Shown: positions 37,321 to 46,700 of the stretch, one piece after another | How positions within the stretch are numbered: the first letter of the stretch is position 1 | How the letters are laid out: each line of letters begins with the position of its first letter | The notes under the pieces: model-generated | The model's database searches: none | Told to the model about the DNA's origin: nothing | Seen by the model: only the letters and a program-made list of their open reading frames with translations | Assembly (NCBI RefSeq): GCF_001040845.1 | Contig: NZ_CP011941.1 | Location: forward strand, 949,744-1,013,743 | Length of the DNA stretch: 64,000 nt | Reading direction: 5' to 3' | DNA from: Synechococcus sp. WH 8020 | Lineage (GTDB): Bacteria; Cyanobacteriota; Cyanobacteriia; PCC-6307; Cyanobiaceae | Position numbers and translations under genes: made by a program

Positions 37321-37362
37321 GTGCGCATTGATACAAAAGGGTGTCAGATCGATGCCTACGGT
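37321..37362 (+). promoter_or_regulatory. NtcA-type promoter of glnA
   Basis: GTG-N8-TAC at 37321-37334 matches the NtcA site GTA-N8-TAC at five of six bases. A TACGGT (TAN3T) -10 element starts 22 bases later at 37357-37362, the canonical spacing for NtcA-activated promoters. Translation of glnA begins 33 bases downstream. Confidence 0.7.
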
Positions 37363-37394
37363 TAGAAACGATATTCTCGGCTGAAGCCTCAAAC

Positions 37395-38816
37395 ATGGCT
37401 AAAACTGCTCAGGACGTGCTTCGTCAGATCAAGGACGAAGGAATCGAGCTGATCGACCTCAAATTCAGCGATCTGCACGGCAAGTGGCAACACCTCACCG
37501 TGTGTTCAGACATGGTCGATGAGGATGCATTCAAGGAAGGCTTGGCCTTTGACGGATCCTCCATACGCGGCTGGAAAGCGATCAACGCGTCTGACATGTC
37601 CATGGTTCCAGACCCCGCCACAGCCTGGGTCGACCCTTTTTATCGCCATAAAACCCTCAGCCTGATCTGCTCGATCCAGGACCCAAGAACAGGGGACCCC
37701 TATGAGCGCTGCCCCCGTGCGTTGGCGCAGAAAGCTTTGGCTTATCTCTCCAATACAGGTCTGGCCGACAAGGCATTCTTTGGTCCCGAGCCTGAATTTT
37801 TTCTCTTCGATGACGTTCGCTACAACTCGAGCGAAGGCGGATGTTTCTACAGCGTTGACACCATTGAGGCTGGATGGAACTCCGGAAGGGTGGAGGAAGG
37901 CGGAAACCTTGCTTATAAAATTCAACTGAAGGAAGGCTATTTCCCTGTCGCACCAAACGACACAGCACAAGACATTCGCTCCGAAATGTTATTAATGATG
38001 GCCCAATTGGGGATCCCAATTGAGAAGCATCACCATGAGGTAGCTGGTGCTGGCCAACACGAATTGGGAATGAAGTTCGACGAACTCATTCAAGCTGCCG
38101 ATAACGTAATGACCTACAAATACGTTGTTCGCAACGTTGCAAAAAAGTACGGCAAAACAGCAACTTTCATGCCGAAACCAGTGTTTAATGACAACGGCAC
38201 TGGCATGCACGTGCACCAAAGTCTTTGGAAGGGCGATCAACCCTTGTTCTTCGGGGAAGGCACCTACGCCAACTTGTCTCAGACAGCCCGTTGGTATATC
38301 GGCGGAATTTTGAAGCATGCGCCGAGCTTCCTAGCCTTCACCAACCCCACCACAAACAGCTACAAGCGACTTGTTCCTGGATTCGAAGCACCTGTGAATT
38401 TGGTGTACTCCGAAGGTAACCGATCTGCTGCAGTTCGGATCCCCCTCACCGGCCCCAGCCCAAAAGCCAAACGCTTGGAATTCCGTTCCGGTGATGCTTT
38501 AGCGAATCCCTATTTGGCCTTTGCCGCCATGATGATGGCTGGGATCGATGGCATCAAAAACCAGATTGATCCTGGTGATGGATTCGATGGCGACCTCTTT
38601 GAGCTGCCAGCCGATCAGCTCAAGGACATTGCCACCGTTCCAGCATCACTGAACGGAGCCTTGGAAGCTTTGAATGCTGATCACCACTACCTAATGGAAG
38701 GTGGAGTGTTCACGAAAGACTTCATCGACAACTGGATCAATATCAAATACGAAGAGGTGCAGCAGTTGCGTCAGCGACCCCATCCCCACGAATTCACGAT
38801 GTACTACGACGCCTGA
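37395..38816 (+). CDS. glnA: Glutamine synthetase type I
   Basis: 473 residues from ATG 37395, the standard GSI length; the frame runs 18 codons further upstream through the promoter. It makes glutamine from glutamate and ammonium. Motifs: [16 protein letters not shown] near residue 55, [12 protein letters not shown] with metal Glu near 133, [15 protein letters not shown] near 212, [12 protein letters not shown] near 265 and NRSAAVRIP near 338. NtcA-type promoter upstream and a strong terminator downstream. Confidence 0.98.
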
Positions 38817-38858: not shown

Positions 38859-38887
38859 AATGATCCCCGTCATGGGGATCATTTTTT
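38859..38887 (+). terminator. Rho-independent terminator of glnA
   Basis: AATGATCCCC/GGGGATCATT stem of 10 bases with a 5-base loop, followed by six T residues, 43 bases after the glnA stop. Confidence 0.92.
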
Positions 38888-39109
38888 ATGGGCAGAGAGG
38901 GGCTTAGAGATGTTAGATCTGCTGCCAACTCAATGAAGGGAATAAACGCAACCAATGCAACCCAAAATTACCCATCAAAAATATATTTACCTATACAATT
39001 AATTCAAGAAGCTATCGATCAATCAACCATTAAGGGGTTCAGCCTGATCATTCATTTCTGCTTCGCTTCCTGAAGCAAAGCATGAAGCGTCTGCCGGAGG
39101 TCGTCTCAT

Positions 39110-39431: not shown

Positions 39432-40934
39432 ATGTCAACAATCCCTCTCGAGACCGAGCTCTCCTCTCTGTACGCCCTCTTTGATGTCAATGGAGATGGG
39501 GCCATCACTCCAGCCGAAGTGGAACAGGTGCTGAGCTCCATGTCGGGGATCATCGCTGAACAGGAAGCCAAGGTCCTACGCAAGTTCATCGAGAGCCAAG
39601 GTGTCGTCACCCGAGAGGACTTCCTGCACTGGGCAAACAAGCAGCCAGGGTTGGGAACCCATCAGCTGCTGAGAGATCTGTTTCACCTGGTGGACACGGA
39701 TGGGAATGGTTGGCTCAATCACGATGAGCTCTCGACAATGGTGTCGCTGCTGGGCACACCAGAAGCATCCATTAATTCCCAGGAGTTGCTGGAGAGGCTT
39801 GATCGCGATGGGAACGCAAAGATCAGCGTTGATGAGTTTTTAACCCTGCTCGAGGACAACACTCGACTCAAATGTTCTCTTGCAGACTTAAAACGTTTAA
39901 AGAAAAGCCTGGCACAGATCAGCAGCACGGCTGGGCTGAATGGAGTGAGCCTTGTGGAGGTGGACTGTGACCTGGGAGCGGGACAACCAGGCGCAGGTGC
40001 AGGCATTGAGATGCTGAAAAGGGCTGTCGAACACCAGCAAGACCTCCAAAAAATGAGCGCAGGTTTGATCGCCGAGATTCGAGGAGAGCAAGCACCAACG
40101 GCCCATGCTGCCAGCGCGGGACAGAGCACCACACCCCACGCTCGTCACATCAAAACCATCGCTGGCGTAATGCACGACGCAGCGAATTTGGTGTGCACAA
40201 CTCTTCAGCAGCAGTGCTTCCCACTCGTCCTTTCCGGAGACCACTCCACCGCTGCCTCAACAATTGCGGGGATCCGTCGTGCCCATCCTCAGTCGCGGCT
40301 TGGGGTGATCTGGATTGATGCCCACGCTGATATTCATTCCCCCTTCACGACGCCTTCGGGGAACATGCATGGAATGCCCTTGGCGATCGCCTGCGGGCAC
40401 GACAACCTTTCAGAAGCGAGGAATGATCCAGACCCTGTCACCCGGAAACTCTGGAAGGATCTAAAGCAACTGCACGGTCTTGAATCTGCAGCGATCGACT
40501 TCCGTGATCTGATCTATGTAGGCGTCAGAGACACCGAGGCCGCTGAGGACGCCACCTTGGCCAACCACGCCATCCCAGTCATCAGCATCGAGGAGGTGAG
40601 ACGCGATGGATCCATCAACGCTGCCAATCGCTGCCTATCCCACCTTGGCGACGTGGACCTGATCTATGTGAGCTTCGATGTGGATGCGTTGGATTCAACA
40701 ATCTGCAAAGGCACAGGCACCCCAGTCCCAGGAGGTCTCTGGGCAAATGAGGCCATTCTCCTGTTACGCAAGCTTCTCTCAGATCCACGCGTTTGTTGCT
40801 GGGAAATTTGTGAAATCAATCCCCACCTTGATGAGCTCACTACGATGGCCGAGCTGTCTTTGGGCATCTTCAGGGCTGGGCTGGAGGTTCTTGGAGAACG
40901 GTTCAGCTCGACATCTTCATCCCATGCAAGCTGA
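39432..40934 (+). CDS. EF-hand domain-arginase fusion
   Basis: 500 residues in two parts. Residues 1-140 hold a calmodulin-like EF-hand region: canonical loops D18-E29 (DVNGDGAITPAE) and D88-E99 (DTDGNGWLNHDE), a near-canonical loop D124-E135, and a degenerate site near 54-64. Residues 170-495 are a ureohydrolase with all manganese ligands: His271 (SGDHST), Asp296/His298/Asp300 (DAHAD) and Asp416/Asp418 (SFDVDALD). SGNMHGMPLA at 309-318 and EINPHLDE at 461 are arginase rather than agmatinase features. Predicted reaction: arginine to ornithine plus urea, perhaps gated by Ca2+. The 3' end overlaps the UT gene by 11 bases. Confidence 0.92.
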   Translation: MSTIPLETELSSLYALFDVNGDGAITPAEVEQVLSSMSGIIAEQEAKVLRKFIESQGVVTREDFLHWANKQPGLGTHQLLRDLFHLVDTDGNGWLNHDELSTMVSLLGTPEASINSQELLERLDRDGNAKISVDEFLTLLEDNTRLKCSLADLKRLKKSLAQISSTAGLNGVSLVEVDCDLGAGQPGAGAGIEMLKRAVEHQQDLQKMSAGLIAEIRGEQAPTAHAASAGQSTTPHARHIKTIAGVMHDAANLVCTTLQQQCFPLVLSGDHSTAASTIAGIRRAHPQSRLGVIWIDAHADIHSPFTTPSGNMHGMPLAIACGHDNLSEARNDPDPVTRKLWKDLKQLHGLESAAIDFRDLIYVGVRDTEAAEDATLANHAIPVISIEEVRRDGSINAANRCLSHLGDVDLIYVSFDVDALDSTICKGTGTPVPGGLWANEAILLLRKLLSDPRVCCWEICEINPHLDELTTMAELSLGIFRAGLEVLGERFSSTSSSHAS

Positions 40935-42519
40935 CGCACCCTCTATTTATGAGCTGCTGCAAGAGCTCCTGCCTCCGCCGCCACCGCCGGTAGAACGAAA
41001 GGGTTTGTTTGCTGAACAGCATTTCCCGACAGGCTCCTGGGGAAGCGCTCTACGCAGCTTTTCCCAAGTGATCTTTATCAACCATCCACTCAGTGGTGCC
41101 CTGCTGCTGCTGGCCTTTCTGATCCAATCGCCGTGGATGGCTCTCTTGGCTGTGTTGGGGATGGCTACAGCAAACGCCGTTTCCAAGCTGCTGAATCTTG
41201 GCCAAAGCCTGCGCGATCAGGGAATCCACGGCTTCAACGGTGCACTTGTGGGATGTGCCGCGGCAGTGCTCTCAGACTCCAGCTCAGTGAAAGATGCCGG
41301 GCTGATCGCGGTGTTAGTGGCGTTCGGAGGCGGACTCACAACGCTGATGCTCGAACTGTGGCGTCGCCGCTTTCATCGCCGCGGAGACCCGCCGGCACTC
41401 ACCCTGCCGTTCTGCCTGATCACCTGGGGACTTGTGGCATTGGTGAGCCCTCGAATGCCAGACACCATCGAGACGGTGAAAGTGGCTGCTTCCCCTACTG
41501 CAGCTCAGGTGTTGGTTATCGGACTTCCCCACAGCTTCGGACAAGTCTTTCTCTGCTCCGACCTTGTCAGCGGATGGCTCGTACTCCTTGCCGTTGCTAT
41601 CGCAAGCCCCATCGCCGCCGCGCTCGGAGCGTGCGGCGCCCTGGCGGGAATGTTGACCGCCTTGGCAAGCGGTACTGACACCGCTGCTGTGGCCCAAGGA
41701 CTATGGGGTTACAACGGCGTTTTGGTTGCGATCGCCCTCGGCGGAATCTTCCACGTGCCCGGACGCAGAACCCTGGTCCTAGCTCTCCTGGGAGCAGGGC
41801 TTGCCAGCCTGCTACAGGCGCTACAGGGGAGGTTGATGGGCAACCTTCCAGCTCTCACCCTGAGCTTCGTGATCACAACTTGGATGATGCAGCGTCTGGC
41901 TGGCCGAACACTACCGGCACTGATTCCTGTTGCCCTACATGCAGTCGTCACCCCTGAGGAACACCGCAAACGGTTTCTCGTGGCAAGTGAACTGCTGGGC
42001 TCCTTCCGCCGCAACCTGCGACAGAGGGTGGACGGCATGGCCCCCCTCGTCGGGAGAGAACAGCCACAAATCCAGCTGAATAGCCAGATGCAACATCTCT
42101 TCGATCAGCTCGACCAAAATCGTGATGGCCATCTCAGCCTTAACGAGCTTCGCAATGCGCTGGTGTCAGGAGGTGGCAGCAATAAAACCCATCTGCGCCG
42201 AACGTCATCCCTGAACAATCAATTGTTGGCAACGATGGCTTCCATGGATCTCAATGGCGATGGCCATATCGACTCCGCTGAATTCAGCAAGCTCATCCAA
42301 CGCTTGCAACGACTCCGAGAGGGAGAGGAGCGGTTGCTGCTGTACTTAATGCCCGTCGATGCCAATGGCAACGATCGTCTCGATCAAGATGAATTAGCTC
42401 GACTGCTGAAGAGCATCGGCCAAGCGCCGCTCACCGCCGGGGAACAAGCGTTGGTGTTCCGAAACCAGCAACAAAGCCTTAGCTGGCACGATTTCGTGGA
42501 TCGCTTGTTGTTGAGCTAA
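40924..42519 (+). CDS. Urea transporter (UT family) with C-terminal EF-hands
   Basis: 531 residues from ATG 40924, inside the last codons of the arginase gene; the frame stays open further upstream only as a shadow. Residues 40-345 form the two-fold UT channel: QVIFINHPLSG, then GFNGALVG and PALTLPFCLITW in repeat one, GYNGVLVAIALG and LPALTLSFVITTW in repeat two (the selectivity-filter motifs). An N-terminal seven-proline run precedes it. Residues 390-531 carry EF loops D397-E408, D442-E453 and a variant D479-E490. Family role is passive urea permeation; the cytosolic EF part could gate it or tether the arginase. Confidence 0.92.
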   Translation: MQADAPSIYELLQELLPPPPPPVERKGLFAEQHFPTGSWGSALRSFSQVIFINHPLSGALLLLAFLIQSPWMALLAVLGMATANAVSKLLNLGQSLRDQGIHGFNGALVGCAAAVLSDSSSVKDAGLIAVLVAFGGGLTTLMLELWRRRFHRRGDPPALTLPFCLITWGLVALVSPRMPDTIETVKVAASPTAAQVLVIGLPHSFGQVFLCSDLVSGWLVLLAVAIASPIAAALGACGALAGMLTALASGTDTAAVAQGLWGYNGVLVAIALGGIFHVPGRRTLVLALLGAGLASLLQALQGRLMGNLPALTLSFVITTWMMQRLAGRTLPALIPVALHAVVTPEEHRKRFLVASELLGSFRRNLRQRVDGMAPLVGREQPQIQLNSQMQHLFDQLDQNRDGHLSLNELRNALVSGGGSNKTHLRRTSSLNNQLLATMASMDLNGDGHIDSAEFSKLIQRLQRLREGEERLLLYLMPVDANGNDRLDQDELARLLKSIGQAPLTAGEQALVFRNQQQSLSWHDFVDRLLLS

Positions 42520-45497: not shown

Positions 45498-45644
45498 GCA
45501 AGCCTCGTTTCGACTTAAACATTCTGTATCGGTTGATACGGAATTTGCGTTGACTTCATAATTCTTTCCCTAACGAAACGATTTGCAGCCTCGGTTGTAT
45601 GGGTTCATCCATTGAAATGGGCGTATTGATCCGACCACTGCCCA

Positions 45645-46700
45645 ATGGCGTCGAGCCTGACTGAAATCGCTTACCGCACCATCCAGCAGGGACGAAGCCT
45701 GGCAGGACTGGCCCATAAGGAGCTAAGCACCAAAGCCATGGAGCTGTTGGCACCCGACGTTGTTCCCAACACAGAACCTGTTCCCGACGCATTACTGAAC
45801 GAACTTCGACGCTCATTAAGCGCCCTTCAGGACATCGATTGGCAGGAGTCAGAACAAGGTCTCTATCCCTCATCTCTGCTGTTTGACATCCCCTGGTTGG
45901 AATGGGCGGAGCGCTACCCACGCATTTGGCTTGATCTTCCCTCGAATTGGGCTAGACGGCGAGCTCGCAACGTCCAGGACATTCCAGAGACGCACGACAA
46001 AGAGTTGTATCCGGATTACTACTTACAAAACTTCCATCACCAAACCGATGGATATCTCAGCGATCACTCTGCTGAGCTCTACGACTTGCAAGTCGACATT
46101 TTGTTCAATGGCGCCGCAGACGCCATGCGCCGAAGGCTGATCGCTCCCTTGAAACGGGGTTTGAAACGGTTTAGTGATCGCCCTGAAGCCAGTCTGCGCA
46201 TTCTTGACGTGGCGACAGGAACCGGTCGGACCCTCCATCAAATCCGAGCTGCACTTCCGAAAGCTTCACTCTTTGGTCTGGATCTCTCGGAATCCTATTT
46301 GCGTCAGGCCAATCGTTGGTTGAATAAGGGGAACGACAGCCTCGTGCAACTGCTCCAAGGCAATGGAGAATCCATGCCATTTGGTGATGAAAGCATGCAG
46401 GCGGTGACCTGCGTTTTCCTGATGCATGAGCTTCCTGCCGAGGCGCGGCAGGCCGTTCTCAATGATGCGTACCGATTGCTCGAGCCCGGTGGCGTTCTAG
46501 TTCTTGCCGACTCGATTCAACTCAAAGATTCGCCGCAGTACAGCGTGGCGATGGACAATTTCCGGAGGATCTTTCATGAGCCTTTCTACCGAGATTTCAT
46601 TTCAGATGACATCGAATCACGCCTGAGCAATGCTGGCTTCACTGGGATCTCAGCTGAATCCCATTTCATGGTGAGGGTTTGGACTGCCAACAAGCCTTGA
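45645..46700 (+). CDS. SAM-dependent methyltransferase
   Basis: 351 residues. A helical N-terminal region of about 170 residues (SLTEIAYRTIQQGRSLAGL, LPSNWARRRARNVQDIP) precedes a class I methyltransferase: motif I LDVATGTGRTLHQI near residue 190, acidic loop GLDLSESYLRQANR near 213, motif IV-like FLMHELP and LLEPGGVLVLADS. The N-terminal part is shared by a family of cyanobacterial methyltransferases of unknown substrate. ATG 45645. Confidence 0.88.
   Translation: MASSLTEIAYRTIQQGRSLAGLAHKELSTKAMELLAPDVVPNTEPVPDALLNELRRSLSALQDIDWQESEQGLYPSSLLFDIPWLEWAERYPRIWLDLPSNWARRRARNVQDIPETHDKELYPDYYLQNFHHQTDGYLSDHSAELYDLQVDILFNGAADAMRRRLIAPLKRGLKRFSDRPEASLRILDVATGTGRTLHQIRAALPKASLFGLDLSESYLRQANRWLNKGNDSLVQLLQGNGESMPFGDESMQAVTCVFLMHELPAEARQAVLNDAYRLLEPGGVLVLADSIQLKDSPQYSVAMDNFRRIFHEPFYRDFISDDIESRLSNAGFTGISAESHFMVRVWTANKP

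Follow-up and report, generated by a model that had tools for sequence, protein, structure and literature searches.

Two overlapping EF-hand fusions in the window

The 64,000-nucleotide stretch of Synechococcus sp. WH 8020 analyzed here (the window; contig NZ_CP011941.1, positions 949,744 to 1,013,743) belongs to a 2.66-Mb genome, designated G000 in our samples, and carries two overlapping genes, of which the first encodes an arginase-family enzyme with N-terminal EF-hands and the second a UT-family urea channel with C-terminal EF-hands. An initial annotation of the same DNA had proposed this arrangement, and both the open reading frames (ORFs) and the Pfam matches agree with it. The channel gene starts with the ATG at 40924, which results in an 11-base overlap with the arginase gene, whose TGA ends at 40934; a longer mechanical ORF at 40678 probably does not represent the true channel start. 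The two genes are probably co-translated, as had been suggested, and the pair is conserved and adjacent in relatives.

39432-40934, + strand: EF-hand arginase gene, 500 aa (P0001); ORF, Pfam, and solved-structure matches
39945-40850, + strand: arginase catalytic domain (residues 172-473) with six Mn-ligand residues and the SGNMHGMPL loop; Pfam, structure alignments, and row alignment
40924-40934, + strand: two-gene overlap of 11 bases (ATGCAAGCTGA); ORF coordinates
40924-42519, + strand: UT urea channel gene with C-terminal EF-hands, 531 aa (P0002); ORF, Pfam, and solved-structure matches
41047-41889, + strand: UT channel domain (residues 42-322); Pfam

The arginase begins with four EF-hands (residues about 9-142), followed by a junction helix (149-160) and the arginase-family domain (172-473), which was recognized by the Pfam model Arginase (PF00491) with an E value of 2.9e-50 and 171.8 bits versus a cut-off of 22. 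Among the 60 solved-structure matches listed for P0001, the first 44 carry the name arginase. All six residues that we take to be metal ligands, i.e., H271, D296, H298, D300, D416, and D418, are present together with the SGNMHGMPL loop, exactly as annotated initially. In an alignment of 18 arginase rows, from which the remnants of genomes G213 and G076 were left out, the H271 and D296/H298/D300 motifs occur in every row and D416/D418 in 17, the remaining row being cut by an insert.

The UT domain of the channel (PF03253, residues 42-322) matched with an E value of 1.6e-66 and 224.9 bits (cut-off 25). The EF-hand region (residues 387-530) lies C-terminal to it, presumably on the cytosolic side if the topology of UT proteins is any guide, and matches the structure of a calmodulin-like domain protein kinase (3khe; E 8.7e-7). 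The claim that the channel keeps its selectivity motifs holds in part. The threonine of what we take to be the LPxxTxPF-type motif is present in both halves (PPALTLPF and LPALTLSF), but the presumed NPxxG-type motifs of the window channel are altered to NHPLSG in the first half and, with the greatest change, to CSDLVSG in the second.

Constraint on the EF-hand loops and the junction helix

Both proteins contain four EF-hands, three with calcium-competent loops and one degenerate, and the original count of two canonical loops per protein was therefore too low. Pfam itself delimits three EF-hand stretches per protein, located within about residues 9-140 of the arginase and from residue 387 onward in the channel, and the fourth, degenerate hand was read from the sequence (EF2 of the arginase, about residues 52-67; EF4 of the channel, about residues 512-529). 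The model EF-hand_7 scored 58.8 and 53.3 bits in the two proteins (cut-off 30). The following elements were located by sequence and row alignment, or, for the helix, by moment/charge windows and row entropy.

39483-39518, + strand: arginase EF1 loop, residues 18-29, DVNGDGAITPAE
39693-39728, + strand: arginase EF3 loop, residues 88-99, DTDGNGWLNHDE
39801-39836, + strand: arginase EF4 loop, residues 124-135, DRDGNAKISVDE
39876-39911, + strand: basic junction helix of the arginase, residues 149-160, SLADLKRLKKSL
42112-42147, + strand: channel EF1 loop, residues 397-408, DQNRDGHLSLNE
42247-42282, + strand: channel EF2 loop, residues 442-453, DLNGDGHIDSAE
42358-42393, + strand: channel EF3 loop, residues 479-490, DANGNDRLDQDE

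The loop pattern scored was D, D/N/S, D/N/S, a hydrophobic residue, and D/E at positions 1, 3, 5, 8, and 12, and the rows (15 arginase, 31 channel) take in broken genes with a readable EF part. For the three competent loops in order, the pattern is present in 14/15, 15/15, and 15/15 arginase rows and in 30/31, 31/31, and 31/31 channel rows. The ligand positions vary far less than the remaining EF-domain positions, with entropies of 0.32 versus 1.63 in the arginase (p 4e-7) and 0.58 versus 1.70 in the channel (p 6e-5); these p values, like those of the Fisher tests below, ignore kinship among the genomes, which counts against the interpretation that we favor. For the window versus G231, a near relative, the ratio of nonsynonymous to synonymous substitution rates amounts to about 0.26 for the arginase EF part and 0.14 for the catalytic part, and to 0.21 for the channel domain and 0.22 for the channel EF part, the last reaching 0.41 in the comparison of the window with G213. 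By these ratios both EF parts are under purifying selection, though they are constrained less than the catalytic part.

Of all 12-mers starting at arginase residues 1-159, the junction helix has the lowest entropy, and it is conserved above the mean of either neighboring domain (entropy of 0.42 versus 0.82 for the catalytic domain). The net charge over residues 148-165 is +3, and the combination of hydrophobic moment and charge is equaled only by the windows 145-153. In the EF-less arginase copy of genome G005, other residues stand in place of the helix. Judged from its sequence, the succession of EF-hands, junction helix, and arginase would be arranged like a calmodulin-type switch that carries its target in the same chain. 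The N-terminal helix of the UT domain and the post-membrane helix of the channel were also considered as EF targets and dropped; they occur in many rows and their conservation is not unusual.

Distribution of the arginase and channel fusions

The initial annotation had proposed a search of other genomes for the same fusions and gene pair, and both were recovered in a family sample of 300 Cyanobiaceae genomes. Some match to the channel protein was found in 34 genomes, and 25 of them encode a full channel-EF protein whose reading frame is unbroken over at least residues 44-530. An intact EF-arginase lies just upstream in 11 of these, in one the EF-arginase is cut by a contig end (G221), four have a broken EF-arginase (G213, G075, G205, and G076), one has an arginase copy with catalytic motifs and no EF part (G005), and no arginase was found in the other eight (G295, G235, G175, G132, G030, G155, G102, and G268). 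All 12 intact EF-arginases of the family sample adjoin a channel-EF gene, that of G280 across a contig break splitting its channel. The loss is asymmetric, i.e., the channel outlives the arginase and not vice versa. Since 13 of the 25 intact channels are without an intact EF-arginase beside them, whereas an intact EF-arginase without a channel occurs in none of the 300 genomes, the data suggest an independent use for the channel, probably in urea uptake, and an arginase that functions only in the presence of the channel. The 11-base overlap was also found in G231, G123, and a Synechococcus locus from a metagenome-assembled genome (L062), and in G045 the genes are separated by a gap of 4 bases. 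The flanking genes vary between groups, and the pair thus holds together while its surroundings change.

Two observations concern broken copies. In the single-contig genome G075, a frame break splits the EF-arginase between EF2 and EF3 into two overlapping ORFs (L066, 5895-7462), which may reflect real decay, an error, or frameshifting. A second channel-EF gene exists as fragments in G222 and G075 (L096, 3543-4145; L097, 3779-4048); the G222 fragment is closer to the window copy (67%) than the intact channel-EF of G222 itself is (49%), which hints at gene transfer and decay.

In a phylum sample of 386 genomes, 13 passed the UT cut-off, and 11 of these have channel-EF proteins, three of them (G486, G619, and G422) belonging to another family, f7; the G486 channel was also scanned with Pfam. 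In the other two (G424 and G359), the UT domain is joined to an M23-peptidase domain. Fusions of this kind, with an M23-peptidase-like domain (L117, 6095-8233, - strand; L118, 6543-8708, - strand), stem from two cyanobacteria of different families and lie beside genes that look decarboxylase-like and ATP-grasp-like by eye.

The arginase search of the phylum sample returned 16 genomes at an E value of <=1e-30, and an EF-hand arginase matching at least EF3-EF4 was found in seven (G000, G075 with its frame break, G123, G045, G062, G106, and G486). Channel-EF proteins are present in 7/7 of these versus 4/379 others (Fisher p 1e-12, with six of the seven from one family). The f7 genome G486 is an independent case with both fusions, which are located on different contigs. 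The sole exception to the co-occurrence, if counted as an EF-arginase, is G608, where an EF part lies upstream of the catalytic part, separated from it and with a stop inside, and where no UT match was obtained. G608 had been considered as an EF-less ancestral arginase, and this was dropped because of the upstream EF-hand part with its internal stop. In the catalytic-domain tree, G486 and G608 group with the Cyanobiaceae copies (99/97), and the EF-less Aureibacter arginase falls outside; the tree is midpoint-rooted only, and owing to its long outer branches the deeper branching order is uncertain. A search of plasmids yielded arginases that aligned only without the EF part, no record covering 80% of the query, and three plain UT channels. 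The nearest plasmid arginase record, from Aureibacter, is a 975-base gene with no EF part.

EF-hand pairs are scarce outside the two genes

The EF-hand-pair model PF13499 was the single EF-hand model searched genome-wide. In the genome of the window it matches three places at an E value of <=0.001, all of them within the arginase and channel genes. The survey was extended to 64 genomes, comprising 26 Cyanobiaceae carriers of the channel, 35 Cyanobiaceae controls, and three f7 genomes. All matches at an E value of <=1e-6 in the 26 carriers fall within the pair or within fragments of the channel gene (G222 and G023), and in the 35 controls without the channel no match falls below 1.2e-4. Other proteins give weak matches (1e-4 to 1e-3) in carriers and controls alike, and in five controls (G035, G126, G169, G181, and G260) such matches pass the curated cut-off once neighboring in-frame matches are added. 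Since nearly all clear EF-hand pairs sit in two proteins of one short pathway, the survey provides the strongest hint of calcium as the input shared by the arginase and the channel.

Additional EF-hand proteins are present in the three f7 genomes. On contig C11 of G486, three genes 5-11 kb from the EF-arginase (L132; 10866-12917, 13418-14347, and 15077-17086, all - strand) encode an EF-hand protein resembling a histidine phosphatase, a bestrophin-like channel, and an EF-hand protein resembling an NADPH oxidase, and this may be an EF-hand gene neighborhood. On contig C221 of G619, a pyridoxal phosphate-dependent decarboxylase with a C-terminal EF-hand pair (L133, 2574-5006, + strand) is encoded about 15 kb from the channel-EF gene. 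The NADPH-oxidase-like and decarboxylase proteins are EF-hand-enzyme fusions too, with different enzymes.

Metabolic setting

Urease was detected in 33/33 carriers tested, with intact or fragmentary channel, versus 40/47 non-carriers (Fisher p 0.038), and the UrtA cut-off was passed in 27/29 carriers tested. The initial proposal of calcium-gated arginine catabolism with urea release is thus narrowed, release being only one option, since the presence of urease and UrtA makes the feeding of urease at least as likely. TIGR00300, presumably a family of arginine-to-ornithine enzymes of the arginine dihydrolase type, is absent from 25 of the 26 Cyanobiaceae carriers; the exception is G268, a genome in which no arginase was found. 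Because of this absence, genomes with the EF-arginase may rely mainly on this enzyme for the direct conversion of arginine to ornithine. Cyanophycin was considered as an arginine store, and this link is unsupported, as the curated cut-off for cyanophycin synthetase was reached in 0/26 Cyanobiaceae carriers tested; strong matches below the cut-off exist in three carriers (G023, G262, and G163), the window genome not being among them.

A candidate operon for calcium-controlled handling of urea nitrogen

Taken together, the two genes may represent a small operon through which calcium controls the handling of urea nitrogen, a reading from sequence comparison for which we see about even odds. In a more specific form, one calcium signal would act at two points, switching the arginase via the calmodulin domain and target helix built into it and gating the UT channel via a matching domain, and the pair would probably be the main EF-hand output of these picocyanobacteria; this form is given a probability of roughly one in three. 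A rise in calcium would load the EF-hands of arginase and channel, whose loops are predicted to bind the ion. The loaded N-terminal calmodulin-like domain would then probably grip the basic helix 149-160 as a calmodulin domain grips its target, and the arginase domain would be released or activated via the junction helix, arginine as the presumed substrate being converted to ornithine and urea. The passive urea channel would be gated or otherwise controlled by its own, probably cytosolic EF domain, and the urea would then pass to urease. Calcium is described as a low-nitrogen signal in PMC10117731.

Several results weigh against this model. At position 6, the arginase loop 124-135 (EF4) carries A and the channel loop 479-490 (EF3) carries D instead of glycine; these loops are not fully canonical and could bind calcium more weakly. 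Taken by itself, the hydrophobic moment of the junction helix is unremarkable (rank 87 of 483 windows), and the channel counterpart, segment 353-370, is not specially conserved (entropy of 1.62). The AlphaFold models, built from two and three sequences only, reached mean pLDDT values of 53.4 and 38.7, a quality too low to reveal the mutual arrangement of the domains; in the arginase model, poor as it otherwise is, the EF part displays eight helices in four helix-loop-helix pairs. The EF-less copy of G005 keeps the catalytic motifs, so the EF-hands may be dispensable for catalysis, or this copy may be decaying. TIGR00300 is absent from all 35 controls, too, and is hence no mark of carriers. No strict NtcA box was found within 400-600 bases upstream of the pair in the window, and only one of 10 relatives examined has such a box there (G222); nitrogen-regulated transcription is therefore not claimed. 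P0001 scored 197.7 bits with TIGR01229, under the curated arginase cut-off of 227.6. Finally, the many channels without an intact EF-arginase indicate that a joint device is not obligatory.

Among the alternatives, a structural function of the EF-hands survives best, even if it seems rather doubtful. The hands would be constitutively filled with calcium or magnesium and would stabilize or oligomerize the proteins or tether the arginase to the channel, without any switching. Some bacterial EF-hands are indeed structural, the same kind of domain is found on both proteins, and their genes adjoin in 12/12 intact family cases. However, three competent loops in a four-hand layout and a conserved basic junction helix look sensor-like, and the persistence of the channel-EF protein without its partner in 13/25 genomes means that tethering is not its only role. 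The EF-hand-tethered enzyme-channel complex of the initial annotation is, as an obligatory unit, not supported in view of these arginase-less channels, and the location of the G486 genes on different contigs argues in the same direction.

It is unlikely, but conceivable, that calcium control is real and that the pair serves the export or overflow of urea, i.e., nitrogen disposal or exchange with neighbors. An intact EF-arginase never occurs without the channel in the family sample and the reverse is common, as if urea made inside needed an exit. Urease in 33/33 and UrtA above its cut-off in 27/29 carriers tested nevertheless point to the use and uptake of urea, and export would waste nitrogen.

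It is less probable still that the enzyme is another ureohydrolase acting on hydroxyarginine, canavanine, or a guanidino acid, with the channel following its urea. Such an activity would fit the TIGR01229 score and residue E369, which replaces the D of the VR-x-x-D motif in the aligned Bacillus and Thermus arginases, a residue that we take to be part of the substrate pocket, and which is E in all 18 aligned rows. According to PMC8390497, a cyanobacterial "agmatinase" turned out to be guanidine-degrading. TIGR01229, the arginase model, is nonetheless the top NCBIfam model for P0001 among the matches listed, the SGNMHGMPL loop and the six metal residues are kept, and the absence of TIGR00300 from 25/26 carriers leaves a place for an arginase.

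A chance or assembly artefact, in which frame errors joined unrelated pieces, has next to no probability: nothing speaks for it in the window, and in spite of broken copies in some relatives it is refuted by the recurrence of these EF parts, at low substitution ratios, in 15 rows of the arginase and 31 of the channel, which also answers the concern of the initial annotation that the EF-hands might be absent from orthologues.

Comparison with known systems

The catalytic domain, the six metal ligands, and the SGN-HG-P loop are shared with bacterial arginase (RocF), e.g., with the structures 1cev and 2ef4, presumably of the Bacillus caldovelox and Thermus enzymes. The solved RocF-type arginases comprise about 290-300 aa and lack EF-hands, whereas the window protein has 170 additional residues with four EF-hands and the junction helix, E369 for the pocket D, and a score below that of curated arginases. 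With the UT/SLC14 proteins (solved urea transporters 1 and 2; bacterial 3k3f), the window channel has the whole UT domain and both LPxxTxPF-type threonines in common, and it differs in the additional C-terminal domain of four EF-hands and in the loss of the second NPxxG-type motif.

Calcium-dependent protein kinases (CDPKs) consist of a calmodulin-like domain joined to the enzyme by a target helix. The likeness of P0001 to them, with four EF-hands, a basic junction helix, and a catalytic domain in one chain, is a resemblance of layout only. In contrast to CDPKs, the enzyme is an arginase, the domain order is reversed, and switching is a prediction; the Pfam matches of the arginase and channel proteins contain no protein kinase domain.

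Another close known system is the calcium sensor CSE (asr1131), a cyanobacterial EF-hand protein with a link to nitrogen status (PMC7065334). CSE is presented there as a small, stand-alone protein with two EF-hands that occurs almost exclusively in filamentous forms, whereas an enzyme and a channel are fused here, mostly in a Synechococcus-type family. Neither fusion was found described in the open-access literature searched, judged from listings, and novelty is thus not proven; by term count, the word EF-hand is absent from PMC2242806, which surveys how 24 cyanobacteria catabolize arginine.

The targets of bacterial calcium signals are mostly unknown, and here the scarce EF-hand pairs sit on two adjacent steps of a nitrogen pathway. 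The pair offers a direct way to test calcium control of metabolism in picocyanobacteria and a compact, testable candidate for a calmodulin-type switch outside eukaryotes. If the more specific form of the model is true, the pair would be a bacterial nitrogen-release module in which calcium controls the arginase and gates the UT channel.

Surroundings of the pair in the window

The gene upstream of the pair (37341-38816) was judged by eye to encode a glutamine synthetase, and one further element was recorded downstream of it.

38859-38888, + strand: terminator-like hairpin with T run, 3' of the upstream gene; fold, z -3.36

Because of this strong terminator-like hairpin, the arginase-channel pair is probably a transcription unit of its own; the hairpin is not among the terminators of the consensus scan. 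Rfam returned nothing in the window at gathering scores. The sole strict GTA-N8-TAC (NtcA-type) site of the window, at 45526-45539, lies upstream of an ORF at 45645 that appears methyltransferase-like by eye. Between 43712 and 44104 (+ strand), the window encodes a small protein with a likely signal peptide, as judged by eye, and no Pfam match; the protein is conserved in three relatives (G213, G231, and G075), again downstream of the pair.

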